DNA of 64,000 nucleotides. Source: Nereocystis luetkeana. Its lineage: Eukaryota; Sar; Phaeophyceae; Laminariales; Laminariaceae. The translations under genes and the position numbers were made by a program. Positions within the stretch are counted from its first letter, which is position 1, and every line of letters starts with the position of its first letter. Location: positions 8,710,698-8,774,697 of the forward strand of contig JARUPZ010000019.1 in the NCBI GenBank assembly GCA_031213475.1, read 5' to 3'. Of this stretch, positions 12,061 to 49,700 are shown piece after piece. The notes below the pieces were generated by a model. It was given only the letters and a program-made list of their open reading frames with translations. It did no database searches and was not told where the DNA came from.

Positions 12061-12169
12061 TATTACGGGGGACCATAGTAAATAGGACCAATTATTGTTA
12101 GCAAAAATAGGTAAATGTATAGGTTTTTATGTGTACGATAGATCCTATTTACTATGGTCCCCCGTGATA
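12061..12169. mobile_element. MITE-like element, family M, intact and without micro-insertions
   Basis: The ends TATTACGGGGGACCATAGTA and (reversed) CTATCACGGGGGACCATAGT form inverted repeats that extend through ATAGGACC/ATAGGATC. The total is about 109 bp, with an AT-rich centre. This copy lacks the CCAGGTA insertions found in the copies at 40267 and 46049, so it serves as the empty-site reference. Confidence 0.8.
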
Positions 12170-15592: not shown

Positions 15593-15703
15593 CTATTACG
15601 GGGAACCATAATTAACAGGACCTATTGTATACATAAAAACCTATATATTTAAGAATTTTTACTAACAATATTTGGTCCTATTAACTATGATCCCCCGTAA
15701 TAG
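15593..15703. mobile_element. MITE-like element, family M, intact
   Basis: CTATTACGGGGAACCATAAT at the left and, reversed, CTATTACGGGGGATCATAGT at the right form the best-preserved termini of the family. They define an element of about 111 bp. There are no CCAGGTA insertions in this copy. Confidence 0.85.
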
Positions 15704-15766
15704 TTGGCATGAAGACAAACATGACGGACACAAGGATGAACAAGAAAAAAAAGTTAATTCCTCCTG

Positions 15767-15832: not shown

Positions 15833-16372
15833 AGCTTTCTCGCCATGGGACCAGAAACACCAACAGCCAAGAGACCAAGCGGCAGAAAAATCGACGATCC
15901 ATCACTCCGTGCTGAGTGTACCAGGTATTAGTTATAAAGGGAAGCCTGCCACTCTATTCAACCAGCGCTGGGCCTACTCAGCCAACGCTAGGCTGGCCTC
16001 AGCATTGATATCCGGGGACGAACCCCTCGTCACGCGCTACTGGTAACCAGGAGCACACTGCTGTCATATGCAACCATACATAACGTCTCCAGCGAGCACG
16101 CTCACAAAAGAACAAATGTGAAGTCGGCGAAAATAGAACTCACGACCCAACCTTGGGGGTTGCATATATAGCAATACCCACTGGCAGAGCAAAAGTCATC
16201 TCCGGCCCTTCCCATTTACTCTGGTTGAACTCGCGCGCCCTGACGTAGTTCTCGTATGTATCATACGTACCAGGTACGCGATTAAACAAAAAAAAAACTA
16301 TGGTTAATGAAAACAAAACCAAGGTCCGAAGAGTGAAAAATCATCTCGAGGGGTTGGCGTGTCGCCGCATGA

Positions 16373-30600: not shown

Positions 30601-33600
30601 AAGGTTACCCTTCGGGATTGTGCTTGGCTTGACATCCCGAAGGTGCCGCAAGCTGAAAAGGGAGAGAAAACACATCAGCAGGCGTTCGTTCCTCGTACCC
30701 AGCTACGTACAGTACTCGTACGTATAATAGCAGCCACCAGGCAAGAACGAAGAACTTGAAAAAAAAACTGCTGTAAAAAGCTAGACAAAAAATGAGTACG
30801 TATGAACAGCAGTAGTCACCGGGCAAGTATTCGGGCAAGTAACACCGAACAGCCCAAACAAGTTTACAGTCACTTGCAGTTCTATTATTAATGGCAGCTA
30901 CCTTTGTTTCCGTACGAGTACGTGCAACAAAAAACAAAGTGGACAGCAATACGCATTTAGTATATCGCACGTGTTTTAGTAGTATTATTAATATTAATAT
31001 TAATAGTATCAATACCTTCATTTAGTGAATCCTACACACACTGCCGTTTTTTCTCTTTTATAGAGTGTGTATGTCGTGCTACCCATTACGACGATATGTT
31101 CATTGCATTGTTGTCTAATCTGCTTACTGTATAACCAAGTAGTATCTCTGTAGCGTAGTTTTGTGACCACATAGCTTCTTATCTCTGCAAGATTGAAGAA
31201 TCGACACGGACACTGGTTGTGCTGGATTTCGACGGGAAAAAATAACGGTTTAATGTGAAGAGTACACACACCAGTCACAACAGACATCGCCGCCGCCACA
31301 TTGAAATACCAAAAGAAACGTCACACTAAAAATGTGCTTTTCGTAGTGAAGTTCTTGTAGATTTTGGTTGAAAAATACAAAAATACGTCGTGAGCTGGGA
31401 GTTCGACATAACTATATCGTCTATTAATAGTAACCTATCAATAGCATCCTGTCGTACAAGCAGAGCAGCTCTATTTCAGCAGTCGCCACTTCTTCTTACG
31501 TGCTCACCCAATGGCAGCACTGCCGTCGCTTTTACATGTTGCTATTTGACATATACTACGGATGAATCTTAGGACCAGTTCTTGTCATATGGTGTTGGGG
31601 AAATATGGTGGAAGCATCTCCGGCAGGATATTATCAAAACTTGGTGGGCATACGTACCAGGTATCTATTGATAGAGCAGCGGCGATAATCAGCCCGCCGC
31701 GACGAAGTCCCGCTTGTAGGATGTACGTACGAAAAAAAAAGCACAGCATACGCATACGTACCTCTTGGATGAGCCTATTAATCAATTAATACCGGTACTT
31801 ATGGTAACCCTCTAAGGGCAAACTGCAGTCCCGTTTTGGGACAAACCACTCAATATATAAGTAGTTCGTACCCAAAATGGGACTGCAGTGTCGCCCTTAA
31901 GGGTTAACTCGGTACAATCCCGAACTCTACGACATACACTACGAAGCACATAAGATGCATTCTGTTCATGCGATCTGTGTATACCCCTCAATTTCGCGAC
32001 AACGGTTACCGGCAACACAAAAAAGTCGCACTTTTACTTTTTCTGTATCGCTGCTACGATATACTGCGAGAAATAAGCGCCGATCCGAAGTGTTTTTTCA
32101 CCACTCCCCACAGGCATGTGGCATGCGCGATTTGAGGGGTTTGCAATATGTATGTGAAGGCGTTTCCGTACAGGGAACGCTACGCCACCTTTTGATGAAT
32201 ACCGCAAGAAATGGTGCTACTCAACACCAGTTGCCAATAGTGTTGCCGTTACTTGTAACGTATTGCATTATACATCCCTGGGAAACAGGAAATAGTGCTG
32301 CACTGGTGACGTACCAGGTATAAACGTACCGTATACTGATGTATATTGTACCTGATACGAGAGCCCACGAAAAGTCTAGCTCCTGAGTCTTGGGCCGCCT
32401 TAGGCGTGCGTGTTTCAAAAGCCTCGGTGCCAGATTTTTGCGAAAGCGGGGTCCACTACATCAGAGTGCACGGCATGATCCGGCTGTTATTTTGTTACGG
32501 TGATAAGCACAAGCTAAGATACCTGGAGGTGAGACCTATGCCAATGGAAACGCGAAGTTCAAAAGTTTTTTTCAAATATATTGCTTTCAAAGAACAGTCA
32601 AAAATTTCCTCGTACCGCCGCTCTGGGGAAAAATAGACGAAATGCTTGATTTTTATTTTTATTTTTCCCAACTGCTGCTGCAGGCGGCGCAATTTCTTTT
32701 TTCTCGTTGCAAAATGTCAACACGCCGATAGAAATCAGCTCGTGCAACGATCGATGCTCGATCTCAACATACACTCAGCCCGTGGCCAACCCGCTCGGTG
32801 TCCGGCAAGGCCAACGAATCTAGATGACACCCTCGAATATATCAGGTGGATCCATGGTCTAGGGGGCGAGAGCTTGCCGGCGGCGTCATACGGGATCCTC
32901 CAAAACCTGAAAAAAAAAGTACTTTTAGCCATTCGAGACGGATGGAGAAATTTTGTCTTCTGTTTTGCGCACACCAGCGGCCCATTGTTTATTTATCATA
33001 CGCCTAATCAGCTCCCGCCATATGACACCGGCCATGGTGTGAAGACGGTGACTGTAGGGTGGGTCGGAGCCCCTAACGAGCGCACTTCGTTTAAAATTCA
33101 TGACGCAGTCGTTGGTATTGTCGATCGATGTCTGTCAGGCAATCGGAATCTCGCCGCTTCGAACCAAACACCCGCCTTAGTTTTTCTCAAGACGATCTTG
33201 GCCCAACATCGGCCCCACATTTGCTTTATTCGTGCTTTTGCAAAAGTTTGATTCTTGTCTTTTCTAAACGTGCCCATAGGAAGCGTGTACTACTACTGTA
33301 GAAGTTTTGGGCGGGTATCTTTGAAATTCAAACTTATAATCCAAACTTCGCTTTCCCATAGGCATAGGAGTGACAACGGGAACGCAAATTTTGAAAAATT
33401 CTTAAAAAAATATTGCGGTCAAGAAACAGCCGAAGATATTCTCGTCCCGCCCCTGTGGCAAAAATGGAAAACATGCTTAATTTTTTTCTTCTTCACACGG
33501 CTGCAGGCGGCGAACTTTGTTTTTTCTCGTTGTAAAATCTCAACACGCTGATAAAACCACTCGAGCGACGATAGACCTTCCATCTCGAAATAGATTCAGC

Positions 33601-36062
33601 CCACGGCCAACCCGCTTGGTTTTGAGCAAGGCCGACTATTGTAGATGGCGGCCTTGAAGATATCAGATTGATCCATGATCTAGGGGGCGCGAGCTTGCCG
33701 GCGGCGTCCTGCGCTCTTCTCCCAAATTTTGTGCACACCAGAGGGCAATTGTGTTTTTATCATACGCCTGGCCAGCGCCGCCACATATCACCGACCGTCG
33801 TGTGAACACGCACGCGCTTCGAACTCAACATCCGTCTGAGTTTTTCTCAGGCCGATCTTGGCCCAACATCTGCCCCAGAATTGTTTTCTTCGGGCTTTTC
33901 CAAAATTTTGGAAGTTTTCGTTTGAAGAATCGTGATCATAGCAAAGCTGTACAGAAAAATGCTGGCGATTATTTTGAAATTCAACTTTTTAACGAAATTT
34001 TTGCGTCCCCATTCTGTAGGTCGTGTAGGCCTAAGCCAGGCATAAGGGGTGTACATCACACACGTGATGAGTGACACCTACAGGTAGCACGAGGCTTTTT
34101 CATACGACATCGAGAGTATATTAAGTTCGACTCGAATCGTACATGCCAAGACCCAAGTCGGTAGGTTAGGGTTGGCGCTAGGGTACGTACAGGAATAAAT
34201 ATCGGCTCGAGAAAAAGTGAATGAAGCATCCGAATCCCGGGCCGTGGGGGCAATCAGCAACCGCTCTGACGCTATACTATCAATATGAATATTTATATAT
34301 CAGGTATTAATAGTACGCAGTACGATTAGGCCGAGCCTCACTTTAAAAAAAACGCTCCCAAAAAAACAACGCGCAGCTCGCAAAGTTGAGGTTCGACCAT
34401 TCAATCGGTCGTTCTTACAGCTGAGGTATTTGTGCAATTTTATAAAAACCTGGCAATTTCCGCCAAAGTTTCGAAATTCTTGTTGGCGGCTCAGTCGGTT
34501 AAAAAACAAAGGCCCCGAAAAAACCCTGTCCAACTCTGGTTCACTCCAAAAAAACTTGTTTCGGCTACATCGGCCAGGCGGTCGGATTGCTTCCACCAAA
34601 GCGGGCAAACGTGAACTGCCCTGTTGTTGTCACACAAGCTAAATCTGGTAATAATATATGGGTTGGTGCTCTTGCAATCTGACAAACAGCAGTACCATCA
34701 GGTGCTTAGATACCTGGTGCGTTATTATTAATAATATTATTACGAGTATTACCATCTACAAGTCGTATTGATTCGTCTGCCCGAATTCGGATAAAATTAC
34801 CTTTATTTTCAACACATTTATATTTTCTACTCGTACTCCTGTATCGGGTCATCTAAATTTCGATGTGCACTCGTATGAAGCTACTTTTAAATTACCTGTA
34901 AAAGACTACTAATATTAATACCAGGTACCAGGTATAATACTAATATTGACAATGGTATATATGTACCATCAATAGCCCAATCTGTACACGTACTCGTACT
35001 CGTACTGGACGAAAAATAGATCCCACACCTGGAGTAGTACGTGAATAACTGCTGTTGTTGGTGGGGTAGTAGGACTGTGCAGCCCCGTTTTGAGCGCAAA
35101 CTACTTGGACTTTGAGTGCTTTGTCCCCAAAACGGGACTGCAGTCTTAAAAGGGTTAAGAGATCGTACAAAAGGCTGTCGTAATACATCATTGCTGCTGC
35201 TGTAGGGTCGCACCGGTGTAATCGCTTCAAGTGTCCACCGCACGCCCTCCCCCTGTTAGGCGGAGGGTCCTCCACGAATCGGCGACTCCACCAAAATCTC
35301 CAAATGCCATCCTCTTCGGCAGCCGATCGCCAGCTGCGACAGACCAAGCACACCTGCTTTCCAATTTTACCATGTACGTACGAATGATACGTAAAAGACT
35401 ATTGTTTGTTGTTTGTCGTTTGCATAGGAGACGAAAAGGGGAGTTATTTTCTACCTGGTACCATTTTTTTTTTTTGTACGTTGATGTACAAGCACTGCTG
35501 CTCCTCTAATTGTCGAAAGTGAAGCGGCAGGATTGTTCCCGAATATGCACAGCAGAAGCAGTACCCGCAACAGCCGCAGCAGCAACAGTGTCGATTGGAA
35601 AGGGAGCCGAGGAACGGGGAGGAAGGAGCAGGAAGCGGTATATAGCCGTGACCTCATTTTTTGGTTTTCGAGCTACCGAAGTATACGAAATGCTGGAGTT
35701 GAGTGCGGCCAAACGTCGATAGTCACTTCATGCCACGAACTACGCTCGTCCGGGACAACAAACATATCTGTTGCGTGACAAATGTGCCAACGATCGTCGC
35801 AACAAAGGGGACGACGGGCGATTAACAGGTCATATCGCGTAACTGAGACAGGCGGGGGACTCTATCTCTTGCAGCTCCAAGTGCACCCACGAATACCCTT
35901 GCCCCCTACCTGACGTGTAGACAAAACACGCAATATTCAAGCCTCGCGATTGTGTGCTACGATACGCACCTCGCCGAGGTCGACCATATTCAGCCACCCC
36001 ATGCTCCTTGCCAGAAGGTCATGATTGACATCGGCCGCCTGGTCTGTGCTTCCCCTCTTCAT
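18301..36062 (-). CDS. gene B: F-box protein with Tudor/chromo-barrel modules (five exons)
   Basis: The proposed join on the minus strand is 36062-35970, 35353-35239, 21275-21077, 19765-19582 and 18603-18301. All junctions are GT-AG with matching phases (0, 1, 2, 0), giving about 297 residues. Residues 1-60 carry an F-box split across exons 1-2 (DLLARSMGWLNMVDLGE joined to VCLVCRSWRSAAEEDGIW). F-boxes bind Skp1 in SCF ubiquitin ligases. Then come two Tudor-like strands-and-barrel modules: VGDKVEVSWEGRF...WWEATVVQKVDG running into YRIHYPGWDSNWDEWVVRDR (the chromo-barrel/Tudor-knot signature, as in MRG15/MSL proteins), and VRDVVEVWC...GAWLQARVKQ...WVPR. The C-tail is Gly/Arg-rich. I infer a substrate adaptor that reads methylated or modified protein. 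The weakest link is the 14-kb intron between exons 2 and 3; without it these would be two genes, an F-box gene and a Tudor gene. The start ATG is tentative, since the frame stays open for some distance upstream. Confidence 0.6.
18595..18660. repeat. G-rich tract at the intron-exon border of gene B
   Basis: GGAGGGGGGTGGGGGGGGGA and following G-rich sequence lie directly upstream (in gene direction) of exon 5. On the transcript this is the C-rich pyrimidine tract of the 3' splice site. Confidence 0.6.
19168..19241. repeat. 37-bp perfect tandem duplication
   Basis: CCGTCAGAGCCAAACAAATA, then AACGGCGGAGGGTAC, occurs twice in direct succession with no visible difference. This points to a recent slippage event. 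Confidence 0.85.
19284..19359. repeat. three C-tract units separated by AATAGCA
   Basis: Three units of 14-17 cytosines followed by AATAGCA. It lies inside the last intron of gene B. The homopolymer lengths should be treated as approximate in any assembly. Confidence 0.85.
19447..19492. repeat. adjacent G and A homopolymers
   Basis: About 20 G, then AACTAG, then about 20 A. It is a simple-sequence tract with no gene content. Confidence 0.85.
19582..19765 (-). CDS. gene B exon 4: chromo-barrel/Tudor-knot core and start of the next module
   Basis: With a 1-nt carry from exon 3 the frame reads RYRIHYPGWDSNWDEWVVRD and then RLRWP, the aromatic-rich barrel (Y, Y, W, W) of MRG15/MSL3-type domains. 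It continues as VFKVRDVVEVWC...GAWLQARVKQ, a second Tudor-like opening. It ends in phase 0 at a GTGAGC donor. The joined codon GGA gives VDG-RYRIHYPGWD, as expected for this domain order. Confidence 0.75.
19905..20060 (-). repeat. SINE/LINE-like family S fragment
   Basis: On the minus strand: CGGACACTGGGCGTGCTGAA, CGTCGACGGGTAG, AACGGTTTCATGTCAACAGG. This corresponds to GACACTGGTTGTGCTGGATG ... CGGTTTAATGTGAAGAACA in the copy at 44470. Confidence 0.6.
20675..20895. repeat. two copies of the C-tract-bordered element (family P)
   Basis: TCATACGACTACGGCCATGC followed by AGTACTCCCCCC at about 20680, and GGGATGCGAGGGTCTATGGT plus CATACGATTGCGGCCATC near 20835-20870. The same blocks recur at 22895-23145, 54640-54735 (reverse) and 61965-62005. 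Confidence 0.7.
21077..21275 (-). CDS. gene B exon 3: first Tudor-like module
   Basis: After the acceptor CTCGCCAG two carry bases complete a codon and the frame reads AHIALSDPAPLLAGRPLSHV, then YRFNDPLVGDKVEVSWEGRF and SWWEATVVQKVDG. GDKVEV...WWEATV is the usual opening of Agenet/Tudor-type barrels (a small beta-sheet that binds methylated residues in known families). The donor GG|GTACAT in phase 2 joins exon 4 correctly. The 5' partner must end in phase 1, which the F-box exon at 35353-35239 does. Confidence 0.75.
22130..22760. repeat. diverged tandem array (three units of ~250-300 bp)
   Basis: Unit starts are recognisable as GCGATGCGCCTGTGGAGGTG (22138), GCGATGGCATCTGTGGAGAT (about 22391) and GCGATTGCGTCCGAAGAAAT (about 22689). 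Each is followed by TCTCGGCCAAG/TCTCGACCAAG/TCTCGACCGAG and further on by GGGGACGTGAAAG/GAGGGCGTGAAAG-type blocks. The long overlapping minus-strand frames (up to 233 residues) are not conserved between units. Confidence 0.65.
22757..22778. repeat. CCCG microsatellite
   Basis: GCCCGCCCGCCCGCCCGCCC: five or more CCCG units in a row, next to the third unit of the tandem array. Confidence 0.8.
22895..23145. repeat. two copies of C-tract-bordered element, family P
   Basis: CTCCGTCCCGGCATTCTAGG then GATGCGAGGGTCTATATGGT at about 22912-22955, and CTCCGTCCCGGCATTGTAAA then ATGCGAGGGTCTATGGTCAT at about 23041-23085. Both end in GATCGAGTACAT...ATCGAGTAC followed by a long C tract. Confidence 0.75.
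23455..23870 (+). repeat. SINE/LINE-like family S, long copy
   Basis: It starts with TGCCAACATCTCCTGAGGGG, has a T-rich body, then GTCGTGTCTGTCGCATCCAG, GGCACGGACACTGGATGTGC, TGGATGTCGACGG and GAACGGTTTAATGTGGAGAA. The copies at 44470-44825 and 31050-31280 share the same order of blocks. No frame is conserved among them. Confidence 0.7.
24130..24226 (+). repeat. foldback element, family H (best copy)
   Basis: TTAACCCTTTTAGGACCGCA, GTCCCGTTTTGGGGACAAAC, then the centre TACTTAGAATTTGAGTG, then the complementary arm GTCCTTAAAACGGGACTGCG and GTCCTAGAAGGGTTAA. It is about 97 bp with almost perfect arms. The ends TTAACCC/GGGTTAA appear to be the boundaries of the unit. Confidence 0.9.
24300..24640. 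repeat. diverged tandem duplication of ~230 bp
   Basis: GCGAAGCTGTCGGGCGTGTC ... TCGGATCGCCACCAGTTCTG recurs as ACGAAGCCGGTGCGCATGTC ... CCCGATCGCCAACAGCAGTG. A (A)17 tract occurs in the first unit only. Confidence 0.5.
24786..24843 (+). repeat. half copy of foldback family H
   Basis: AAACCCTTTAGGACTGCACC, then GTTTTTTGGGGATAAATTAC and TTGGAATTAGGACC, match the left arm and centre of family H. The right arm is missing. A similar fragment lies at 25142-25187 (CCCCTTTATCGGAGACAAAT, TACTTGGAATCAGAG). Confidence 0.55.
26411..26438. repeat. GCT trinucleotide run
   Basis: Nine GCT units. No surrounding frame looks coding, although three minus-strand frames pass through as poly-Ala/Ser/Gln. Shorter runs lie at 46953-46980 and 54300-54340. 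Confidence 0.85.
29286..30084. mobile_element. ~0.8-kb inverted-repeat element, family T, copy 1
   Basis: The start GACCTATGACAATGGGTACG followed by CGAAGTTTGAAAG and the end GGAAACTTTGCGTTTCCATT followed by GGCCTGTC are inverted repeats of about 26 bp. The body shares AACAGCCGAAGATATTCTCG, CTGCAGGCGGCG, AACACGCTGA, GGGGGCGAGAGCTTGCCGGC and CTTGGCCCAACATCGGCCCC with the two copies to the right. Frames are not conserved between copies, so it looks non-autonomous. Confidence 0.7.
31050..31280 (+). repeat. SINE/LINE-like family S copy
   Basis: GAGTGTGTATGTCGTGCTAC, TCTGTAGCGTAGTTTTGTGA, TCGACACGGACACTGGTTGT, GCTGGATTTCGACGG and ACGGTTTAATGTGAAGAGTA occur in the family order. Confidence 0.7.
31804..31908 (-). 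repeat. foldback element, family H
   Basis: GTAACCCTCTAAGGGC, ACTGCAGTCCCGTTTTGGGA, CAAACCACTCAATATATAAG, TAGTTCGTACCCAAAATGGG, ACTGCAGT and GGGTTAA. The centre is in the reverse orientation relative to the copy at 24130. Confidence 0.8.
32533..33364. mobile_element. inverted-repeat element, family T, copy 2
   Basis: The start GACCTATGCCAATGGAAACG followed by CGAAGTT, and the end CCAAACTTCGCTTTCCCATA followed by GGCATAGG, are inverted repeats. The body carries GGGGGCGAGAGCTTGCCGGC and CTTGGCCCAACATCGGCCCC as in copy 1. Copy 3 starts immediately at its right end. Confidence 0.7.
33360..34023. mobile_element. inverted-repeat element, family T, copy 3 (internally deleted)
   Basis: It starts within CATAGGCATAGGAGTGACAA and GGGAACGCAAATTTTG, and carries AACAGCCGAAGATATTCTCG, GGGGGCGCGAGCTTGCCGGC and CTTGGCCCAACATCTGCCCC. 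It ends near TTTTTGCGTCCCCATTCTGT. It is about 140 bp shorter than its neighbours. It lies head-to-tail with copy 2. Confidence 0.65.
35071..35158 (+). repeat. foldback element, family H, close to gene B exon 2
   Basis: AGGACTGTGCAGCCCCGTTT, GCGCAAACTACTTGGACTTT, GAGTGCTTTGTCCCCAAAAC, GGGACTGCAGTCTTAAAAGG, GTTAA. It sits about 80 bases past the exon 2 donor, inside the proposed intron of gene B. Confidence 0.8.
35239..35353 (-). CDS. gene B exon 2: second half of the F-box
   Basis: After the acceptor GGAAAGCAG the phase-0 frame reads VCLVCRSWRSAAEEDGIWRF followed by WWSRRFVEDPPPNRGRAC. The VCRSWR...A..D..W block is the C-terminal half of an F-box. The donor chosen (GCGTGCG|GTGGAC, phase 1) is the one that fits the phase of exon 3; other GT sites in this frame are possible. 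This exon must be preceded by the N-terminal half of an F-box, and one is found at 36062-35970. Confidence 0.7.
35970..36062 (-). CDS. gene B exon 1: first half of the F-box
   Basis: From ATG at 36062 the frame reads MKRGSTDQAADVN then HDLLARSMGWLNMVDLGE. It ends in phase 0 at a GTGCGT donor (GGCGAG|GTGCGT). L-L-x-x-x-x-x-x-L-x-x-x-D-L is the N-terminal F-box half, and it joins directly to the VCRSWR half across a 616-bp intron. The frame remains open upstream of the ATG, so the true start may be further right. Confidence 0.65.
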
Positions 36063-36988
36063 TCTTCGGGTGCACAAATGTTTTGCAAGGTCAGCGGGGT
36101 TGAGAGACGGAGCAAGACCTCACCGCTTCGGAACGTCCTCATACGATATGTTTTCTCCCTCTGGATTTGAAGGTTTCCCACGTAGAAATTAAAAATTATC
36201 ACGGCATCCCCCGTCCCCGGCCCCCGGCCCCATGGGCGTGATGGAGAGTTTAAATATGAAAAAGACGAAAAGACGGTTCTGTTTTTTTATTGCTGATATC
36301 AGTATAGGGGCCCAGATGCAACATACCAGGTACATATCATAAGTTATGTAACGACAACAAGCAACGACAACGACAAACACGGGAGGGTCGGCATGCGGGC
36401 TCATTTGTTCCTGAATTTGTGAACCTTGCACTTCGCACCTCGCAACTCCTATCACACCGTTGCTTTCACTTGACAGTGGGCGGGGACGGGTGCATTGCAG
36501 TGCACAGAGATTCTGGCGGGGAGGTACGGCGGTGGTGCGGTTTCCGTGGTGAGCCGGGTAAAAAAAGGCTGAGCCTCCCCGGGGCTCGGGGCTGGCCCGT
36601 ATGCCTATTTTGCTCCAATTTTGAGAATCTGCCCAGGGTACGTCAATGAATGACAGAATAGGACACGACGACGTCTATCTGAAGAATATGACCGTCGCAT
36701 TGACCCTCCGTATGACAGCAACGGACGCTCAATGAATGATTTGAAAGTTCTCGAGAGTTGCATCGATATTTGAAGTCCAAACAGGTCAATGCAAAGGTCT
36801 CCTGCCCGAGGATGCCACCTAGAGTTACCGGAGTGTGCTGCTTTAGTGTTCGACCGCATCGGATACATCGACGAGCTCCGAAAGGAATAATTGGCGGCGA
36901 GCCAGAGAGAAAGAGTGATTGTCATGACCTCGAGGAAGTCGTGAGCTTGAATTGCCCTCGCCTGTTGTCTTGTCGCGCTCTCCACAAA
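36063..36988. promoter_or_regulatory. divergent intergenic region, probable shared promoter
   Basis: The F-box gene starts leftwards at 36062 and the channel gene rightwards near 36989. No clear TATA box or other motif stands out. A TACCAGGTA (36324-36332) lies inside. If the channel has an upstream 5' exon, the layout would change. Confidence 0.4.
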
Positions 36989-37747
36989 ATGGTGGGGACG
37001 AGAGCTGCGTATCGGATGTCCCGGGGGGGCGTGGGACGAGGAGCCAAGGACACCGCTGACGCCGTCGACGCCTGTGAGCATAGGGGAGCCATCTTCGAGG
37101 CGCACGGGAAGCGTCTAGAGTACGCTAAGAACTCCCTGTACGTCTTCGACGAGCACAACGCGTTCCGGGTGGGTTGTGCAAAGATAATATCGCACCCCTA
37201 CTTTGACCGTGTGATCCTTCTGTTTATCCTTCTGAACTCGGTGGTGTTGGCGCTGACCGATTGGTCGGTCATAGACGAAGACCCCAACTCCGATGATGTC
37301 GGCGAGCCTATCGAGGAGGGCTCCTGGCGCAATACCCTCCTGTACGAGTCAGAGGTAGTTTTCACGGTGTGCTTCACTACGGAGTTCGTGCTGAAGGTGA
37401 TTGCACAGGGTTTCTTCCTTGGGCAGGGGTCGTACCTCCGAGACCCTTGGAACGACCTCGATTTTGTGGTGGTGGTGACGGCCCTCTTGACCAGCATACC
37501 AAATATGCCCAAGATGACGGCAATACGAGTTTTCCGAGTGTTGCGCCCATTGCGGAGCGTGTCCGCTCTTCCTGGACTGCAGAAGCTAGTGGTCAGCATG
37601 CTGAGGTCTGTGCCGCAGCTCGTCAGTGTCGTCGTTCTCCTGCAGTTCATCTTCACGGTGTTCGGCATCTTCGGCATTCAGATCTTCGCCGGAAAGCAGC
37701 ACTCCCGCTGCCGCCTGACGCCGCACCCCGTGACTACTGACTTTGAG
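36989..37747 (+). CDS. gene C exon 1: N-terminus and domain I S1-S5
   Basis: The ATG at 36989 is one of several in frame, and the frame is open further upstream. Conserved sequence begins near SLYVFDEHNAFRVGCAKI, which matches the pre-S1 segment of Cav channels. Next are S1 (DRVILLFILLNSVVLALTD), S2-S3 (YESEVVFTVCFTTEFVLKVI; LRDPWNDLDFVVVVTALLTS), S4 (AIRVFRVLRPLRSVSALPG) and S5 (LVSVVVLLQFIFTVFGIFGI). The exon ends TTDFE in phase 0 at GTGAGA. S1-S5 in one uninterrupted 759-bp exon contrasts with the fragmented domains II and IV. Confidence 0.85.
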
Positions 37748-40700
37748 GTGAGACCTGCAACATGAGATTACTACTCGTAATAGTAAGCACAAGTGAAGGC
37801 TTGACCTGAGTCGAGAGAGAGAAAGCGAGACCCACATGTAGACCCTTTACTATATACCTGGTATATTAATAATAGCCACCCCAGAGCAACCATAGTATAT
37901 TCAAGCAAGGTGTCTGTTTTAAGTCAACCATCAGTGTCACAATTTCGTTCGGGCGCGTAGGGGTGCCTATCAGTAGTGAGATCATGAATGGAGCGAGTGG
38001 GCGAAAAGAATCTCTGGTCGATGGGGGGGGGGGGGGTGGGTTCCGATTCTCGAACGTAACACGTCGCTTGGAATGACTCGTGACTCGCGGCTCGCCAGCC
38101 TCCGGTTGCCTTGATGTTTCTGGATGGGCGGGCTATCCTGGGCTGGTCTGTCCATGGTGCCCGCCTCACAAGCAGTTGGTGCCGATCTGTTCTCCCATAC
38201 GTTAACGTTGAGGACGAGAGCGATTTGTTCGTGCGGTTATCGGGTGGTGCGCTGCTCTCGGGATGTGTCTTGTCTCGCGCGCAGAACGAGAAGGAAGAGC
38301 ATGACAGGTCAACATACTCGTACAGTACTCGTAGCGGACATGATGATGCTGGTGCATACTGATGCCCAGGCACTTCTGCTTGTAGTTTACATGTTTGTAC
38401 GTGAAGCAGTAGTACTCGTAGTGCAAGTTCTGCTGGAGGGAAACGACAGACTACAGCAGTTCTTTCTCGTGGAAGATATCTGGTACCTGGTATACATACT
38501 CTCGTAGTGTGCTCTGTAGGCACGCACCTAGAACAGAAGTTCGGACTGCTATTAATACGAGTACTTCTGCTGCGGCACTATGATATTATTTATTTACGTA
38601 TACCTATGTTGATACGTAACCTGCTGCCGCTGCGTCAATCGGTTGAAGCGTACTGGCCCTCTCTTCATACATAGATAACCGAGATACTGGCCCAGATATT
38701 AGAGAAAATATGTGTTCCACACGAAGTTACCGTCGTATTATCTTTACGTACCAGGTACTGGTATGGTATACTAGGAACTTGTAGCACGCACCTGGTATAT
38801 GAAAAAAAAAACAAAAAAAAAATTGTTAGTCAAAATAGGCAAATATGTACCAGTAGGTTTTTGTTTGTACCATACCTGGTAGGTCCTATTTACTATGGTC
38901 CCCTGTACATATTAGTAAGGGAACAATCCGTGGGCGGTAGTAAGCCTTGCTGTAAGGCCATTATGTATACCTGGTACCTGGTAGTTTTTATAAGCCGCCC
39001 ACGAATCTCTTATTTCCCGGAAATCTCAGGCCGAGTTTCTTGTGGCACTCTTTCTTTCCCTGTTTTTTCGATCGTGGAAAGGGCAACACCCTTCGTAGGG
39101 GTAAGTTAAGACAGTCGTATTTTTATATTTTTGTATTTTTGAATACAGCAGTACTGTCTGCTAAGTACATATGGTACCTGTTCAGCTCGACCTGGTATAT
39201 ACGTATTATAACAAATAATTATTCCTATCACAAGTCAATAGTATAGCTCAGAGTGTAGTGGAGTGGTGAACCCTGTCGTTCGGGGCATTGCTACGCGTAC
39301 CAGGTCCTGGTGTATACTATTAATAGTACGGTATTTATATTGATACTGCTGTACGTATATTACGTAGACGCCTCGGGCACACCAATACTCAATGCCAGTA
39401 TGCAGGTTGACATGTTGAAATCTGCATCCTTTACTATACCTTCATCGTTCCACGTGCGGCCCCCGCCAGGCAGATTCAAAGAACCTGCTTTTTCAATATT
39501 ATTCCTGCACTTCTGTGTACCAGCTGCCAGAGATTAATACAGCAGTATAATAAATTAATAGTAGCGCAACAAATCTGACATTTAACTTCGTTGTAACATT
39601 TGAACACGAAAGCACAAAAAATACCATCAATACCTGGTGTTTATACGTAGCCAACACACGCATTTACATTTATACTTTTTTAAACTACTACCAGGTACTA
39701 ATATTGTATAAATATATATATATATATATATCCTGTGACCACGGACGGACTCATTTTTTTTTTTCTTCAAAGAGTTAATGTGAGAACAACGACAACAAAA
39801 TCGTACTGCTGAACTGGTACACCGGACCTGTTATACCAGGTATCATCCGCCGGAACTTTTGCGTTCCCTGTACGACAGCCACAACAACAGCGGGTCGATA
39901 GACCACCAGGCGAAAAAAAACTAGCGACTTCGTATTCGACGGGGGCACCCCAACTCTCATCGCTGCGGCAGAAGAACTGCATCGTTCTATTATTAATAAT
40001 AGTATGTGAGGTGTGAGGGTATTTCACCTTGCGTTTGAAAGGACACGCAGAGTTCGCCTGCTACATAAGTACGAACAGCAGTAGTAGTACTGATACTCTT
40101 TTGGATACGTACGTGTTGGTGTCATACCTGTTGAATCAGAAGGCCGCAGATGATCCCAGTGTGCTTCATACTCCTACTGTAGTACATACTCCGAGTATAC
40201 TCGGGAGTATCGAGTATATTTTGTACTCCCAGCACTGAGAGTACTGCATTACTGGCGGCCTAAATACTATTACGGGGGACCATAGTGAATAGGACCAATA
40301 TTGTTATCAATAGTAAAAATAGGGCAATATATAGGTTGTTTTATGTACCGTAGGTCCTACCAGGTATTTAATATGGTCCCCCGCAATACGAGTACTGGGA
40401 GTATGATCAGTACTGAAGACCCAAATACTGCGAGTGGGGCCATGAAGCAGTACAGGACCCCGAGTCCAAGCAGTACCTGCTGCACTCCGAAATACTTGGA
40501 AAACTCAGAGGACCAAGAGTATTGAACCCGTACATACTGCGAGTACTTGCAGTATATACTCCCGAAATACTGTCAGTACTCCAAGTGCTCCGGTTGCCCC
40601 CCTCCATAAGTGGTTTGTTCCAATTCCCACTAGTGCGACTATCAGTGAAGCTGTTTGCTATATTATGGGGATGCAATCATCAAGCACACAGATGGTCGCA

Positions 40701-43700
40701 GTATACTTTATACTCCGAGTATACTGCGCAAACTGGTACTCCGAGCACTCGAAGTACCTACGGGCGAAATATTGCCCGTACTTGGCAGTACGACCTCCTG
40801 AATACTTGGAAGTACAGCAGTAGTCCACAGTATTCAACCACGGAATACTGCGAGGTAGTATCCGCAGTACAGGATATCGAATACTGCGAGTCCCCGCAGT
40901 ATTCCGCAGTACATGAAGCCCGAATACTCCGAGTACCTGAAGCAGTTCTTTCGGAAATTCTTTACTCATGCGTCTCTTAGGTACTGGGAGCATTTTGTGG
41001 AGAGATCATACTGGCTACGAGTACTCGTATCGTATACCTGGTGCGTACCTGCTACATGATACATTTCTGAGGTGATACCGGTATCATGTTATAGCGAGGC
41101 ACCACAAGTACCAGGGTATTGCGCAGCAGCTACTGAAATACTGGCTGTACATATTTCGAAAAGGCTTTTTGCCTTCGAAAACCAAGCAAAGAAGGCTCGC
41201 GCGCCCCATCACAGTATTTTTTTCTGTTTTGCTTGAAGTGAAGTTTTTTCTCTCTCTTCCCTTTTTGATATCTGATGTGTTCGGCTTCGATTTCGATTTT
41301 CGACGTCGAGTTGTTTTTTTCATCCAGTCTAATTCTTCTGGGTAGTATACGGTCTTCTCGGTTTCTGTGGCAACTTGTACAAAAGTGTAGATGTGCTTCA
41401 GTTATCATGTGTATTATTCTTTGCTTGTGGTATATTTTTTCCCGAGGAATTCTTCCACTCCAGAATTATTGGGGCCTGTCCTGCGACCACGGACTGCATC
41501 ATATTGTGGCGATGAGTTAATGTGAGACCAACAACATGTATTCGAACGATATCCTCACAATCGCGCAATTCGTCGCTCATCAAGAGATGCGTCGTTTATG
41601 CTGTCGATCCCCTATATAAAGTTGAGATAACACGATGAACACAAAATATGGGATTAACACGCCGTTTCATCGAATTTTGGCCGAAATTTTGACACGTCCT
41701 TCCTTTGAAGTTTTCCTAATAAAGGCTTTCATTGCAGCTCCTTGTTGTTTTGTATTTTTTTCCGTCTGTTGTGGCCATGAACAATAGTCGTGTTTTTCTG
41801 AAAATTGGCCTAGTTCACGAAAGTAAAACTGAACATGAAAAGGAGCTGCAATTACGTAGTTCCTTTGAAATCATGTACGTACTGCAAGGAATCATGTGTG
41901 TTTCCAATTTTCAGGTCGAAATTCGAAACAACGGGGTGAGAAAGTGGGTGGTCAACTAACAACGTCTCCGTGTTTCAATGCAGGTTGGTATGTAGAAGTC
42001 CGCATCCTTTCTTGTTCTCATCGTTCCACGTTCCAGCTGCTGCGACCCCCGCCGAGCAGATTCGAAGAACGTACTATTTTACATAGAAGCGCAACAAACC
42101 TGAAATTTAACTCCGTCTTATCAATAGATAATGAGTTATCAATGTTGAAGATCATGCTGCACATTGTCGGATGGCAAGGGAAATAATCATAATATTAATA
42201 GTACAAGAACAAAAAAAGTACCTGGTGCATCAATACCTGGTATCCTGGGTATGAATATTGGTAGCAATAATACCAGCACACCCACACATATACATAGTTC
42301 AGTTTGCACATTGGTTTTATCTTGTGTGCGCTTTGTTCGTCTCGTGTGTATTTTTAGGCAGCCGAATTTCGATTTTTTGTGGTTTTTCGGATCTTCCTAT
42401 AATAGGGCTCCAGCACGTTTGTGTGACCACGGACTCCTTCGTCAGAGAGTTAATGTGAGGACAACAAACAACAACAATATCATATTTTTAGGTTTTTGTC
42501 TGCTATTAATAGTCTCCTTTTTGCTTCCCTGGTGTCCGCAGTGGTGGAGTGCGTATGCCTGTTTTTTGTTTTTTTTTGCCTCTGTTTTTACTTGAGGTAT
42601 TTCTTCCACTCCAGAGTTATTGGAGCCTGTCCTGCGACCACGGACTGCATTGAATTGTGAGTTAATGTGAGAACAACAACAACAACAAACCTGGTACGCG
42701 GGAACTTGTTTTTTTCGTGTACGTACAACAGCCAGAACAGCAGCGGGTCGATAGACCACCAGGCGAAAAACTACCGAAATACCTAGTTATCGACGGGAGC
42801 ACCCCAACTCTCATCTCTGCGGCAGAAAAACTACTTCGTGCTTGATCGTTTTGAGGGCATTTCAAGACTTTGTCGGATGCACATGTTCATATTATTTCAT
42901 ACCACAGATTCTCGTAGGACAAGGAATCAGGACGGATATGAGGAGGGTAAAAAAGACGATTTATGGATGTGAAGACAACACACACGGATAGATGTCTGTA
43001 TCATACTGATTGAGGCTAAGGTCATACTGAATTCGTACCTGACAAGTACATCATATTTTTTTTGCGTTCATATTTTACCGAGGCATCCCTTCCTGAGCAC
43101 GTATGCTGTCCGTCTATTAATAGCAGCCTTTCTGAAGTCCTGACGTCGTTTGCATTCTGTTTTTTCTTTTTTTCTTTTTTTCATTTCAGATTTTTGTTTT
43201 TTTGGTTGTATTGTACTTTGCTCTTATTTCTCCGGTCTTGCTTGTGTTGTTGTGTCCTCGTACCCGGTACGCTGACACTTCTCTTGCTTGACACTTGAAT
43301 TTGCGATTTAGTTTTTATATTGGGTCTTCCTCTGTCTCACAGTCTGTGACCACATAATCAGTACCTCTCTAGGATAGGGGATCAGGACGGACACTGGGTG
43401 TACTGATGAAGCTGGGTAGAAAGGACGATTTAATGTGAAGACAACAACAACAACAACCACAAGTATTGCGCAACAGCATGAAATATTAAATACTCGAGGT
43501 GTATTCGAAGTCTGTACACAATACGTACGTACGGTATTTACGATATACGAGTATTCATCTGCTGTTCTTGTGGAATATCCGTAAATATACCATGAGCACG
43601 GTAGCGTTTGGTCTGCACCTCACCCCGACACGGCGCCGATGCGATCTTCTATGTTCGTCTCCAAAGGTCAATCAAACCACTGAGCTACTCAGTTTAACCC

Positions 43701-46700
43701 ACTGCCTAAACATTTCGAAGAGGAACTTGAAAAATATCGTGCTTCTCCTGGTCTGCAAGTCGCCAATATGATAATGCTGTGAAGAGTTTAAGTGGTAATT
43801 TGTAGATAGTGGTCCACATTTTTTCTGTTTCAGTATTAATATCAATGGTGGTCTGTGACGACGGAATCACCATCTCTTTAGAGTAAGGAATAAATACGAC
43901 GGGCACTGCCTGGGTCTACTGGTTGCGTTGGGTAGAAAGAACGGTTTAATATTACTGTTGTAGGACAGCAACACACACAGCGTAGCAGTTCGAACGTGAC
44001 GAGTTGGTATTGATTGTTGATGTTCGTTTTTACGGTAAGTAAGATGGGCATGCTGGCCCCCTTCCACCTCGAGAGTTCTATCAGTAGCTTCTGGCATGGT
44101 TTTGCTTTGCTATTCATCCTTTAGATTTCCTATCTACGACAGAGCGTACGTGCAATCATAGTATACGTACCAGTATTCGTACCTGTTGCTTGTTTTTCAG
44201 ATTGTTGTGTTGCACAACTGCTGCGATTCAGACCGACCAAGCCGCCTGCAGTTGCCTGCACCATGAACCGTATGATATGAGTATGAATATTGTTGAAAAC
44301 ATGGAAATAGTAAACAACCTAATCTGCACCGGCCTTTTTGGACATGTGGATAAGTGGATCATCGAGTACCGCAAACTGCTGCGGCTGCCTGCAGTGTGTT
44401 TTTTTGTTGTACTTCAGTTCGACTGCTGGTATCACCCTCGGTTCTTATTATTAATAGTCTTATTACTCTATTTTTATGTTACGGTGTTGTTTTTTCAGCT
44501 GGTTGTGAAGTTTTGCCACATCTCCTACTCGTCCATGCGTACCGGGGGGGGACGACACTTTTTTCTTTTCTTCGATTTTTTTTGTTTTTTTCGTTTTCTC
44601 CCTCTTGCAAGGCGTATGTCGTGCCTGTCGTATCCAGCACGATGGCATGGCATGCATTGTGTGGTCCACTCTGCTCACTTCACGCACAGCGGTTGTGTAT
44701 CTCTGTTGCTTAGTTTTGTGACCACAAACAGAGCTTGTACGAGCATCGGATCGGCACGGACACTGGTTGTGCTGGATGTCGACGGGTGGGGAATACGGTT
44801 TAATATGAAGAACAACACACAGCAGTACAGATGGTTAGTCCACCTCGCCCAAGATTCGCGGGAAATTCTTCCTGGGATACCAGAGGCCAGCGGGTATATG
44901 ATTGATGTATCTCTTGTATTAATAGGATGCATACAAAAAGAGTCTGTACCAGGAGTAAGACGAAAACCCAGCAACAGCAGAATACATGCCTCACGTACCG
45001 AGCACGAGACCCTAAAAACTTGACTGCAGGACAGGAGACTGCAGCAAGCAGCACATTTTTAGTTTTTCTGTTTATTTTTCCTTCCCATTTAAGTATTTTC
45101 GCTCTGTCTGTCGTCGTTAACTCAGATCCGGAGTCACATACTCGTAGCAGGCGTTTTGTCCCCCCTCCCCTATGCCGATCGTGCCTTCCATTTTGTCGCG
45201 AAAATGCTTCATCCATATTCTTCCCTGGTCGACTCGCGTCGAAATTCACATACCTTCAGTTGATACAATACACCATATAATAGGTATCTATTGCTGTATA
45301 CTACGTGTCATAACTACCGAAGGTACTGCTGACCGGTAATAGAATACGCCCAGACGAGAAAAATCGCGCAAATTCAGCACCAGTGCCTAGTGCGAAAAAT
45401 TCGAGTGCGTCACATATTTTCATCGGCCTGCCTGTCCAAATATCCCACTTACCACGTATTCCAGCCACCACGCTACTGCTGTTGTTGTTGGTTATACCAG
45501 TAGTTATGCATATGATGATATACCAGGTATGTATATGTATATATACCAGGTATATATTTATATGTCCCGGTACCTTGACATCAGTAATCTTTTACGATTG
45601 GCAGTTCCCATTTGTTTTACATGTGCTTGTCACGAAACAGCAGTGCCACCTCATGTACCAGGTATATGTGTATAAAACTCGTAGTATGCGCGATCGAAGT
45701 ATCATCACATCACACACAGCTTGAAAGCATGGGTTTGGACCATTTCGACCAAACCCTAGATCTCACAGCTAGCTGTTTTTTTTTAATTTTAGAAATGTTT
45801 GTGTGTATATAAAGCTTCATGTACCTTGTCCAACAAAATAGTAGACAGATTTTAAGCTGGGGTAGAGGGTAGGTGTAACACATGCATACGTAGCTAAGCT
45901 TCCTTGTTCGATTTCCCATTGCATTTTGGGTGTTCTTGTTCACACCGGCTTCGTATATCATATACATGCATATCAGGTACATACGAAGTAAATACATAGA
46001 CTAGTACGTTGGTAAAAACGGATCCAGGCGTTCTTCTTTACCATACTGCTACGGGGGACCATAGTACCAGGTACCAGGTAGGACCTACGGTACAGACAAA
46101 AACCTACCAGGTATATATTTCCCTATTTCTACTATTAAGAACAGTATTTGGGTATTTTTACTATGGTCCCCCGTAACATTAACACGTACCTGGTATCGTA
46201 CACTCGTGTTAATAGTATGCGATACTTGAAAAGATGAAAATGTGATACTGGTAAGGTATGCCGCTCGCGCGCCACCGACCATCGCAGGCCAGAGCCGTAA
46301 GCCCGGCCGGCTGTCCAGAAGGACGGCCATGGCAACTGCTGTTGGGGCGTTTGAAGAGGAGACATTTGCCACGGGCCTATCAACCCTGTTGTCGGCAAGC
46401 ATACGCGCCGGACACGTACACATGGAACAGACGGGCACACATATTATATATAACATGCGAACGCTCAAATGGATCAGACGGAAATATTCGATACCCTGTT
46501 GGATCCCTAATAGCTGAAAGTTGAGCGTAACAAGAAGAGTGTGTTCAAGTGTTCAAATGGCGATCAGTCAGTGGTATTATGTATCTTTTTCAGGGCTTCA
46601 GTTTCGTTTTGGGGACAAGCTACTTGAAACTTCAGTGGTTTTGTCCCCCAAACGGGAGTGCAGTCTCAAATGGTCTATCAGGGGTAAGCAGATCGCGTTT

Positions 46701-49700
46701 GCACGCACGAACGAACGAACTCGAACGCACTCCGTGCCGTTGGAAAATAGTAAAAGTGCGAAGATGAAGCACAAAAGGCGAGCGGAAAGGACCTCAACGT
46801 CGGAGCTGCCGGCAGAGGCTTCGCAGCTCTTGCACGCAGCGCCTCTCACGTTCCGCCATGGTTTGACGAACCATACGGCACTCGCTTGGCCTCTTCCGCC
46901 ACCCACCCACCTAGCGAACCACTCCTCCGTGGCCGCCATCTGCCCGCTTGCCACTGCTGCTGCTGCTGCTGCTGCTGCTCCTATCAATATTGTTTCTGTT
47001 GAAATTTCCGGTCGTCCCCTCGGTATTATGTGCACAGGTGCGTAGAAAATGGTTGGACACAAAAATATACCAGGTATACGTACACAAGTGCCCTGCCGAG
47101 TGTTTTGTTTGAAGGGTCGGTTTCCTCTCGCCGGGCCCGATGGGAAATTGTTGACAAGGCTGGTTACCACTTTAGTTGTGCGTGACTCGTATCACATACT
47201 GCTGTAGCAGGTAGTGTGTACGCGAGACGTGCAAGTAAATCAGCTTCTGCGCCGCAGCGTCGCATGGGCTTTATTAGCCCCTTCAGAATCGCAGTCCCGT
47301 TTTGGGGACACCCCACTCAAAATCTAAGTAATCTGTCGCCAAAGCGGGACTGCGGTTCTAAAAGGGTGAATTTAACTATTAATATATATTTCACGGCACT
47401 ACTGCTGTTAAAAAATAAACGATGCGTTGTGGCACTGCTGTGCCGACTTGGGCACGTGCGTCTTCGTCTCCCGTCCCCCCCTGACGGGATGGGGCGCGTC
47501 GGGGCTCGACGTGACACGACACGCCGCGGCAGCCGCCTTGATCCCACGGCCAACTCGCGTCTCCGTTTCGCTTGCCATTGCCGCTGCCTCTGTCATTGGC
47601 CAGATCGGGATGAACCACACCGAATATCGTTGCATCGATGCCATAAACTTCGACCTGTTGGATGATGAACCTTCGTGGTCAAAGAGGGACAGCCCCTGGG
47701 CCACCTCGCGCGAGTGCTGGTGGCCGCTGGACCTAGAGGATGACCGATTGTGCGCGTTTGATACCTCTTCCGGTAATCACAAGTGCGACCACGACGTGAT
47801 GTTCATGGAGGAGAGCGACTTCAGGTGGTGTGGTAGCAACTACGATGCCCGGGGCAACCGGCGGTTCTCGGGCGGGGTGATCGAAGGGGTGCACTGGGGG
47901 GCAAAGGAGCTGACGGAGAACGCTACCTTCATCGAGAGCCTGAACTGGGGCTACACTACGTTCGACAATATCTTCGTTGCCTTTTTATCGATTTTTCAAA
48001 GCATCACTCTGGAGGGGTGGTCGGAAATATTGTACCAGGTACGATATGGTGATACGTATGTGCGAGCGTGGAGGGGTGGCGGGAAATAGGAAATCTCGTA
48101 CTATAAATAGGGTATATGTACACCAGCTGTGATACGGGCGGCGTCATCTATACCTGGTACCTGGTAGGTTTTATCGGGGATGGAATTGAGAGAGCGAGGC
48201 GAAAAAGGAAGGGGGGGGGGAATGAGGGGGCGAGTGGGTGGGGGGGGGGAGCGATTGTATACAGGATCGATCATACGTGGCGCAAACGACCCTGCGCGCC
48301 GCTGCAAGCAGGGGCTGATATATTCTGCACCGAAAGTATCACTGCAAGGAGTTGTACGGCTCGCTTGACCCTGCGTGCCGCTGGAAGAAGGGGCTGATAT
48401 ATTCTGCGCCGGAAGTATCACTGCAAGAAGTTGTACGGCTCGTTTTTTTTAATCATGTCGTAAATACTATGTGATCGATCATCCTACTGCCGTGTGTATC
48501 ATACGTACGTGCGATCGACGGTTGGTGGGGCTATGAGACCACGCTCTTCTCTCCTCGCTCCTCTGTCTGTGGCGTTGGTCGTTGCACATGTCTCTGCACC
48601 CGAGAATGGATACGTCAGAGTATGACAGCACTGGGACAGATCTGCAGTGAGAAAGTTTTAGATCCACGACGGAGGAACTCCTTCCTTTTGCCTACTGTAC
48701 GTGCTGATACATGTTGCGAGGTGCATGCTTTTGCTATGCTGCGGGTAATTTTCGTTTCAAATATACCACATCGTTCGTGTCTCCTATCAACATCAATACA
48801 GGCAGTACGCATTTCCCCCCCCTATTTATGGTCTACTTAATCCTACCGGTTTACGTCTCTCAGGCATTTTCTTTCAAACTAATACCTGGTATATACAATC
48901 CTGTCTTTGTTCCGCTGTCTCGAGTTCTACACAGCAGCAGTAGTCTCTTCAGTAGTATTTTCTGGTGGTGTTGAGGTGTTGACATGAGCCGGCGAAGGTT
49001 ACTATTTATAACTGTCGTTCCTATACATCGTGTACGTACTGCGAGCACCATGGGAGTGATGGATGAAGCCTCCGAGCGCCCGTACCCCCGTTGGCAAGCG
49101 TCCTCCTCGAACCGCGTTTACCTTCCTTCCATTGCACCGTAGCAGTATATATATTTATTTAGTTTTAATCATCACTTTTACTTCCCAGCCTAACTCGTAG
49201 GAGGTTTTACCCTCGGCGATCTTCTGGACAAGCCGTGGTCACAGGTGTCGTCCCTTCTCCCCCCCCGGTACGTGCCTTTATTTTTTGTCGCGCATAGGGC
49301 TCAGCATTCCCACTGCTCGTCGATTTTCATCTAATGTAGCTAACTCACGCTTTCGCGCTTTCCGCTAATAAATTTTCTATGCAAGAAAAAGCCCCTGCGA
49401 GCATGCACTCGGTGAGACTTGAACCCACGAAATTGATCTTGATAGGCACGCGGACCACCTACCAAGCCACCGGGGACACCGGCTATATACCCTACCAGGT
49501 ATCTGGTAGCAATTGCGCTAACTGGAGCCGCGCTTGCAAATCTGGAGCGTGTAGCCGGAAAGTCGGATGGATCACTCGGCCGACGTCGCAGTTCTTACTC
49601 CGCCGAGTTGTGGGTTGTTCTCATCTTTGGTTTTTGCGTTCTCAATTTTTTTCGACGGTGACGCCCTCGTGACGAGTAACAATGACGCGATGACTGACTG

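Follow-up and report, generated by a model that had tools for sequence, protein, structure and literature searches.

The near-palindrome TACCWGGTA (W, A or T) occurs across the genome of the brown alga Nereocystis luetkeana and behaves as CCWGGTA inserted at TA dinucleotides. We analysed 64,000 nucleotides of contig JARUPZ010000019.1 (assembly GCA_031213475.1, positions 8,710,698 to 8,774,697 of the forward strand), hereafter the window. With little more than even confidence, we lean towards reading the copies as excision scars of a TA-targeting cut-and-paste DNA transposon with CC(A/T)GG ends. For brevity, they are called scars below.

Abundance of TACCWGGTA

Exact matching identified 43 copies of TACCWGGTA in the window, making it the commonest non-homopolymer 9-mer. 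Dinucleotide shuffles gave a mean of 0.40 and at most 3. A preliminary description of the window, made by eye, had counted about 42 copies against some 0.5 expected, with about 27 between 34919 and 49501. Exactly 27 start in that interval. The genome-wide count that it proposed as a check is far from expectation. Across 465,085,209 bases in 1,987 contigs there are 182,395 copies, versus 1,744 for a control with the pattern reversed. Copies with C or G at the centre (TACCSGGTA) number 10,882, versus 1,899 for their reversed control. Hence, W is 17 times commoner than S at this position.

We sampled 20 stretches of 10 kb, at set positions on 20 contigs. These 200 kb hold 74 copies, with at least one copy in 18 of the 20 stretches and 0 to 10 in each. 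The densest 10 kb of the window, beginning at 38484, holds 20. Hence, the cluster in the window is a true local excess. It sits on a genome-wide background and is not restricted to one part of the window.

The window, the 20 sampled stretches and 15 of 30 motif-bearing bait loci, chosen to avoid overlap, were combined into a set of 309 kb. This contains 125 scar arrays, of which 111 are single, 12 double and 2 triple. It has 141 exact words and a further 141 with one mismatch; the reversed control gave 1 and 43, respectively. One-mismatch copies occur for all position classes, the outer TA included. From their excess, we estimate a mean decay of about 7% change per base, which indicates that the scar-making process lasted long.

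Insertion of seven bases at TA

The window contains six copies of an inverted-repeat element of about 115 bp, a miniature inverted-repeat transposable element (MITE) that we call M. In the 309 kb, 36 copies of M were found. One weak copy was dropped and 35 were aligned. The full motif is present in 6 of the 35, at three TA positions, each of them a bare TA in the consensus. The motif is derived rather than ancestral in this family, the point that the preliminary description had wished to see checked by aligning M copies. At the TA in ATATA-TA-GGTT, four copies carry the motif, one of them as the double followed by the short form. One further copy has the short form TACCAGTA alone and another the palindrome TACTCCGGAGTA. 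The other 29 have no insert, a few having lost the TA by substitution. Centres of A and T are both found at a single TA of M, in the same orientation.

Filled and empty copies within the window had already been compared by eye at 38873, 40358 and 46105. These comparisons are real, and all three sites align better once seven bases are removed. For example, identity between the copy filled at 38873 and 12094-12165 rises from 75% to 82%. The insert at 38848-38855 is TACCAGTA, one base shorter than the full motif, at a TA that is fully filled in other M copies. The double at 46065-46080 occupies the TA that is filled at 40358 or a place next to it; a neighbouring TT is missing, which leaves the exact placement uncertain.

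A second repeat family, GATCGTATCACGTA-GTGTTCAAGGTAAGGCACCC, has 11 clear copies in the 309 kb; a twelfth match, in the window, was too weak to be counted. A TA in the middle of this repeat is filled by TACCTGGTA in a bait locus (L003:1500), and by TACCAGGTA in L036:9293; the remaining nine copies have no insert. A TA further downstream is filled, again by TACCTGGTA, only in L036:9837. Together with the M alignment, these data indicate that the motif is derived and that unrelated repeats acquired it repeatedly, at different TAs. They also indicate that the central letter is independent of orientation.

We then compared all of the 309 kb against itself and collected insertions of 3 to 24 bp that could be placed between TAs. 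There are 39. TACCWGGTA accounts for 11 of them and its double form for one more, and all 11 TA-bounded insertions of seven bases have the CCWGGTA sequence. Among the six of these 11 sites that were listed, those in L003 and L016 are bait positions, as is the double in L014; the other four, three of them in the window and one in L031, were not baits. For a further 550 gaps, no placement between TAs was possible; these include alignment noise and, perhaps, some misplaced scars. Thus, three lines of comparison uphold the seven-base insertion at TA that the preliminary description had proposed. The insert stands at a TA with TA on both sides, as do footprints of Tc1/mariner transposons.

The four tandem pairs noted by eye (34919, 38968, 46065 and 48151) are all confirmed. 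Genome-wide, the double form TACCWGGTACCWGGTA occurs 15,917 times, versus 2 in the control. This agrees with the suggestion of repeated insertion at the newly made TA.

Three side observations concern these repeats. M has the ends TTACGGGGGACCATAGT with TA on both sides, TAC being favoured before the TA, and is highly abundant; in the 200-kb sample, its 14-mer TACGGGGGACCATA was counted 21 times. The repeat around GATCGTATCACGTAGTGTTCAAGGTAAGGCACCCAAGAGG is present as 11 copies in the 309 kb (in L002, L003, L036, L042, L046 and L050), four of them in L003. Other short palindromes are inserted at TA in one paralogue each, namely CTCCGGAG, which has a Stowaway-like end, and CGCG (L041:1711-1722 and L043:6354).

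A symmetric target signature

The 125 arrays have 250 outer flanks, which we read towards the scar, with all TAs as the reference. At -1 the flanks avoid T and prefer A or G, at -2 they prefer T or C, and at -3 either A or T. In the outer part, A at -6 and A/T at -7 are prominent, largely owing to a second TA exactly 7 bp away. Such a TA is present in 56 of 250 flanks (18.3 expected) and on both sides of 9 of 125 arrays (1.2 expected). The background is 7-8%, and matching for AT content keeps the expectation at 18.3. The preference is seen separately in the window (16/78, or 11/68 with M masked), in the random 200 kb (30/128) and in the C1 loci (10/44). In 41 of the 56 cases, the five bases between the two TAs differ from CCWGG by at least three changes; 6 of 56 differ by one. 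Hence, decayed stacked units account for few of them.

A weight matrix of eight positions per side separated scars from other TAs with a cross-validated area under the curve of 0.815 to 0.860. The pair of flanks is never repeated between scars. Neither TACGAGTA, TACAGCAGTA, TATTAATA and TACAGTA nor the ends of M show a TA at 7 bp. TACCAGTA shows it weakly (9/60, versus 4.4); the process that made the scars may also have yielded this shorter form.

This symmetric signature with a TA at 7 bp is new in this analysis. It provides a symmetric AT-type target preference, as known for Tc1/mariner elements, and backs the TA-targeting that had been proposed. Because the signature lies at the entry point irrespective of the insert, it points to a TA-specific integration enzyme. 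Stacking can partly be explained in the same way, since each new scar makes a TA with another TA 7 bp off.

A model of excision and the search for a parent element

Briefly, a transposon with inverted CCWGG ends would enter a preferred TA and duplicate it. At exit, the non-transferred strand would be cut five bases inside each end, so that both broken chromosome ends would bear a 3' overhang, CCWGG. The overhangs could pair through CC/GG at four of five bases, around a central A:A or T:T mismatch. Repair in either direction would convert TA to TACCAGGTA or TACCTGGTA. The new TAs would be good targets and scars would stack in tandem. The assumption of a five-base cut would, alone, account for the sequence of the scar, its W centre and its TA frame. 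We infer the element itself, its residence as a longer insert, the 5-nt stagger and the pairing and repair steps. Mismatch repair in either direction had been suggested from the window, and two results agree with it: W centres far exceed S centres, and both A and T are found at the same TA in two repeat families.

Several results weigh against excision of such a transposon. No element family with TA-CCWGG ends was found in the 309 kb using orphan half-sites, half-site pairs and a scan for TA-bounded inverted repeats. This includes the Tc1/mariner elements with terminal inverted repeats starting CCA or CCAGG that the preliminary description had expected. No recurring sequence follows the 116 orphan half-sites. 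These half-site tests miss ends that begin CCWGGTA, because such ends look like scars. The best candidate pair of ends, window 59206-60058 (below), was not found a second time in the 309 kb, and no other near inverted pair was seen among the 100 listed of 273 genomic places that resemble its ends. Profile searches of the genome gave no match to DDE_3, with 30 candidates scored, and none to Transposase_1, for which the controls were likewise silent. TACAGTA, the scar expected of the CAG-ended pogo-like family, is enriched only about 2-fold, and its flanks do not show the signature. T is also avoided at -1 of TACGAGTA and TACAGCAGTA, which makes this feature of the signature less specific. Finally, the insert has five bases between its TAs. 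Published Tc1/mariner footprints are 2-4 bp and those of ZB 0-3 bp (PMC7913693); those of the pogo-like Passer are 0-4 bp (PMC9976928).

The proposal of a Tc1/mariner-like excision footprint thus stands in part. It gains from the insertion at TA, the stacking, the W centre and the target signature. It loses in that neither a CCA- or CCWGG-ended family (309 kb) nor a Tc1/mariner transposase (genome profile searches with DDE_3 and Transposase_1) was found. Membership among Tc1/mariner footprints is not established, because the length falls outside their range and parent and transposase were not found. A wider proposal is that a TA-specific system with a five-base cut wrote more than 180,000 near-identical scars and has hardly any resident copies. 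It could be a hit-and-run transposon that leaves a stamp at each stop, or an enzyme that directly inserts a 7-bp unit at TAs, preferring those with another TA seven bases off. We offer this tentatively and would sooner doubt it than adopt it.

The search for ends covered all motif copies. Comparison of their 282 flanks gave 88 similar pairs, versus 3-17 at random TA sides. The 30 pairs listed are due to the stacking of scars, to copies of M or of the second repeat family, or to AT-rich runs. The best of 330 inverted motif pairs spans window 59206-60058, with an inner match of 9/11 before divergence and 11/20 overall. The pattern of its 20-base end matches 273 genomic places with at most two mismatches (control, 7). 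Four matches are exact, two of these being the candidate's own ends, and scar abundance alone is estimated to predict about half of the 273. The pairing is probably due to chance. One further candidate, L048:5653-5961, is about 305 bp long and has TA-CCTGGGTTC ends (CCTGG) with 15 of 20 inner bases complementary; it is a single case. TACCWGGTG was rejected as an element end. By eye, its 31 places have no shared downstream sequence and hence look like decayed scars.

Two resident families as candidate sources

The genome contains 28 matches to DDE_1, and two of these loci were read. Around one of them (L051), no exact 11-base inverted repeat was found in 4.8 kb. Another locus, L092, contains a pogo-like element of about 2 kb (709-2686) with ends TA-CAGTACCGGCCCGCTAGTAAGAAAC and a 542-amino-acid open frame with a DDE_1 domain. 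Its family has 129 genomic termini with at most three mismatches, 57 of them exact over 27 bases, and many of the 100 listed termini form +/- pairs about 2 kb apart. The exact termini and paired ends make the family look young, and it is possibly still active. The family ends, TA-CAGTACCGGCCCGC, start CAGTACC and not CCWGG. The L092 copy itself sits in TACCAGG-TA-TATGGTA, beside a scar. Genome-wide, an exact scar lies outside an exact end of this type in 2 places. From TA density, 0.4 (57 termini) to 1.0 (129 termini) would be expected. A TA at -7 is found at 6 of the 57 exact termini; the background is 4.2 and scar-like choice would give 12.8. With the wrong ends, no target signature and adjacency not clearly above chance, this family was rejected and is probably not the source of the scars.

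Separately, 22 unpaired places match a scar plus a pogo-like end with exactly two mismatches (for example G000:C1:1084352, C1:3571495 and C2:1765095). None is near any of the 100 listed termini. They may represent a coding repeat or the termini of a related family.

M was also rejected as a source. Its flank preference differs (TAC before the TA) and a TA at 7 bp is present in 2/52 flanks, versus 3.8.

Alternative explanations

That no resident family was found beside the 125 arrays in 309 kb could mean that none was needed. In that case, a TA-specific enzyme, for example a transposase in abortive or end-only integration or a domesticated one, would add the 7-bp unit directly. The single uniform product agrees with this, as does the target TA at 7 bp, which is the length of the unit itself. 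However, a self-pairing overhang gives the uniformity and W centre more simply, and we know of no enzyme that inserts a 7-bp unit directly at TA. We regard direct insertion as unlikely, though the least unlikely of the alternatives. Collapse of CCWGG-ended elements by recombination or slippage between their ends, with no transposase excision, would leave an identical end product. It would need 182,395 near-identical collapses with few intermediates. Partial elements would also be expected, yet the orphan halves do not cluster, and we consider this route improbable. To the same degree we doubt templated or polymerase-mediated insertion by alternative end joining at breaks in TA-N5-TA sites. Short templated insertions are a general product of repair, and the flank signature could mark the site of breakage. 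However, such inserts would copy nearby sequence and vary, whereas one sequence is found here in unrelated repeat families.

A protein-binding or regulatory motif, formed by point mutation and kept by selection, would suit a short near-palindrome that is spread through the genome. The comparison of filled and empty copies shows a change in length of seven bases, and one-mismatch copies occur at every position class. Hence, this explanation is largely refuted already and keeps very little probability. Expansion of a heptamer microsatellite, (TACCWGG)n, by slippage, as in the bacterial arrays described below, would produce the doubles and triples. Conversely, 111 of 125 arrays are single, new units arise where none stood before and 5 of 16 neighbouring pairs mix A and T centres. 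Slippage is the least probable explanation of all.

Relation to known systems

The Sleeping Beauty (SB) scar is TACWGTA, in which a central mismatch gives the choice of A or T. The scars proposed here would resemble those of Tc1/mariner elements (SB, ZB and Mos1) in several ways. These are insertion at TA with TA duplication, a short TA-flanked scar derived from the element ends, overhang pairing around a central mismatch and preference for a palindromic AT-rich target. Such staggered cutting by SB makes 3-nt overhangs (PMC7827188). The inner part of the scar signature resembles the palindromic AT repeat that surrounds the preferred TA of ZB, SB and Bari; as published there, this pattern has no extra TA at 7 bp (PMC7913693). 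Unlike Tc1/mariner footprints, the scars have 5 bp and not 2-4, favour a TA 7 bp away, number about 182,000 and have no parent among the sequences searched.

Putative Stowaway footprints in Triticeae are TA-flanked end fragments, such as TACTCC..AGTA, at an intronic site. One site was used repeatedly, with insertion beside an old footprint (PMC1925063). The scars, on the reading proposed here, would share these features. In contrast, the account of that locus gives five varied footprints, and here one uniform sequence is found genome-wide. Pogo-like elements (Passer and the L092 family) likewise duplicate TA, and a DDE_1 transposase is present in this genome. They differ in the shorter footprints given for Passer (PMC9976928) and in the CAGTACC ends of the L092 family, which lacks the target signature of scars.

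Highly iterated prokaryotic palindromes of the HIP1 type also consist of one short near-palindrome far above expectation. Unlike these, the copies here are demonstrable insertions in repeat families. Literature searches for a genome-wide footprint motif, or for its letters, found nothing matching among the papers listed. Other heptamer repeats have been published (PMC4679880, PMC4692102). Scans of IMG/VR for M and for the triple motif gave no matches. In 40 stretches of bacterial metagenome-assembled genomes from several phyla (L052-L091), we observed arrays of the heptamer, (TACCWGG)3-5, often beside variant heptamers and in some cases with A and T centres mixed. As tandem arrays of heptamers, these triple-motif contigs were judged unrelated.

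If a TA-specific system with a five-base cut wrote them, the scars would form a natural record of past transposition in this lineage. Published Tc1/mariner footprints are 2-4 bp, so that one uniform scar of 5 bp, on such a scale, would count as a new variant, and a 5-nt stagger would widen the known range for TA-specific transposases. Footprints are usually studied singly; here, one scar word is frequent enough to be counted, dated and mapped genome-wide. Scars would estimate directly how often a transposon entered and left, even with no remaining copies, and offer thousands of natural target sites for reading target choice and repair outcome. The data suggest that one mobile system could supply a noticeable share of short intron insertions.

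Features of the window

Four open stretches of the window match Ion_trans and indicate a gene for a voltage-gated-type channel, split by long introns, which gives the window a eukaryotic look. The scar at 48033-48041 could have become or moved a splice site of this gene; its position may also be coincidence. No tRNA and no Rfam match were found in the window. All scars and M copies are listed in Table 1.

Table 1. Positions of scars and MITE M copies in the window
Feature	Position	Strand	Remark
scar TACCAGGTA	1899..1907		exact match
scar TACCAGGTA	3163..3171		exact match
scar TACCAGGTA	9830..9838		exact match
scar TACCAGGTA	10167..10175		exact match
scar TACCTGGTA	11283..11291		exact match
MITE M copy, empty	12057..12170	+	
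MITE M copy, empty	12801..12912	-	
scar TACCTGGTA	13442..13450		exact match
scar TACCTGGTA	13453..13461		exact match
MITE M copy, empty	15593..15705	-	
scar TACCAGGTA	15919..15927		exact match
scar TACCAGGTA	16268..16276		exact match
scar TACCAGGTA	19400..19408		exact match
scar TACCAGGTA	27518..27526		exact match
scar TACCAGGTA	31655..31663		exact match
scar TACCAGGTA	32312..32320		exact match
double scar TACCAGGTACCAGGTA	34919..34934		exact match
scar TACCTGGTA	35452..35460		exact match
scar TACCAGGTA	36324..36332		exact match
scar TACCTGGTA	37855..37863		exact match
scar TACCTGGTA	38484..38492		exact match
scar TACCAGGTA	38749..38757		exact match
MITE M copy, one full and one short scar	38822..38907	+	
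short scar TACCAGTA in M copy 38822-38907	38848..38855		TA filled in other M copies, no insert in most
scar in M copy 38822-38907	38873..38881		TA alone in 12094-12165, 15597-15673, 12806-12879, 40311-40381
double scar TACCTGGTACCTGGTA	38968..38983		exact match
scar TACCAGGTA	39689..39697		exact match
scar TACCAGGTA	39834..39842		exact match
MITE M copy, one scar	40266..40388	+	
scar in M copy 40266-40388	40358..40366		TA alone in 12061-12164
scar TACCTGGTA	42234..42242		exact match
scar TACCAGGTA	45521..45529		exact match
scar TACCAGGTA	45544..45552		exact match
scar TACCAGGTA	45656..45664		exact match
MITE M copy, one double and one single scar	46047..46179	-	
double scar in MITE M copy, at or beside TA filled at 40358	46065..46080		absent from empty M copies; placement uncertain
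scar in M copy 46047-46179	46105..46113		TA alone in 40270-40383, 12063-12165
scar TACCTGGTA just outside M copy	46187..46195		exact match
scar TACCAGGTA	47068..47076		exact match
motif copy at channel exon edge or end; Y-Q-V or CAG/GTA splice donor (good)	48033..48041		only copy in Pfam-matched coding stretch
double scar TACCTGGTACCTGGTA	48151..48166		exact match
scar TACCTGGTA	48883..48891		exact match
scar TACCAGGTA	49493..49501		exact match
scar TACCAGGTA	59206..59214		exact match
scar TACCTGGTA	60050..60058		exact match
scar TACCAGGTA	60460..60468		exact match

Other short words are also abundant. TACGAGTA occurs 80 times in the 309 kb, versus 20 expected. TATTAATA, CTATTAATAG and TACAGCAGTA are strongly over-represented between 28 and 48 kb of the window and in the genome sample. 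With TAs at 3-bp steps, they look like degenerate trinucleotide repeats. A further short inverted-repeat family, with AAAACGGGACTGC arms, is found in the window at 8028-8105, 16374-16452, 24130-24228 and 31805-31889, with more copies at 35078-35158, 46588-46665, 47273-47371 and 59087-59181.

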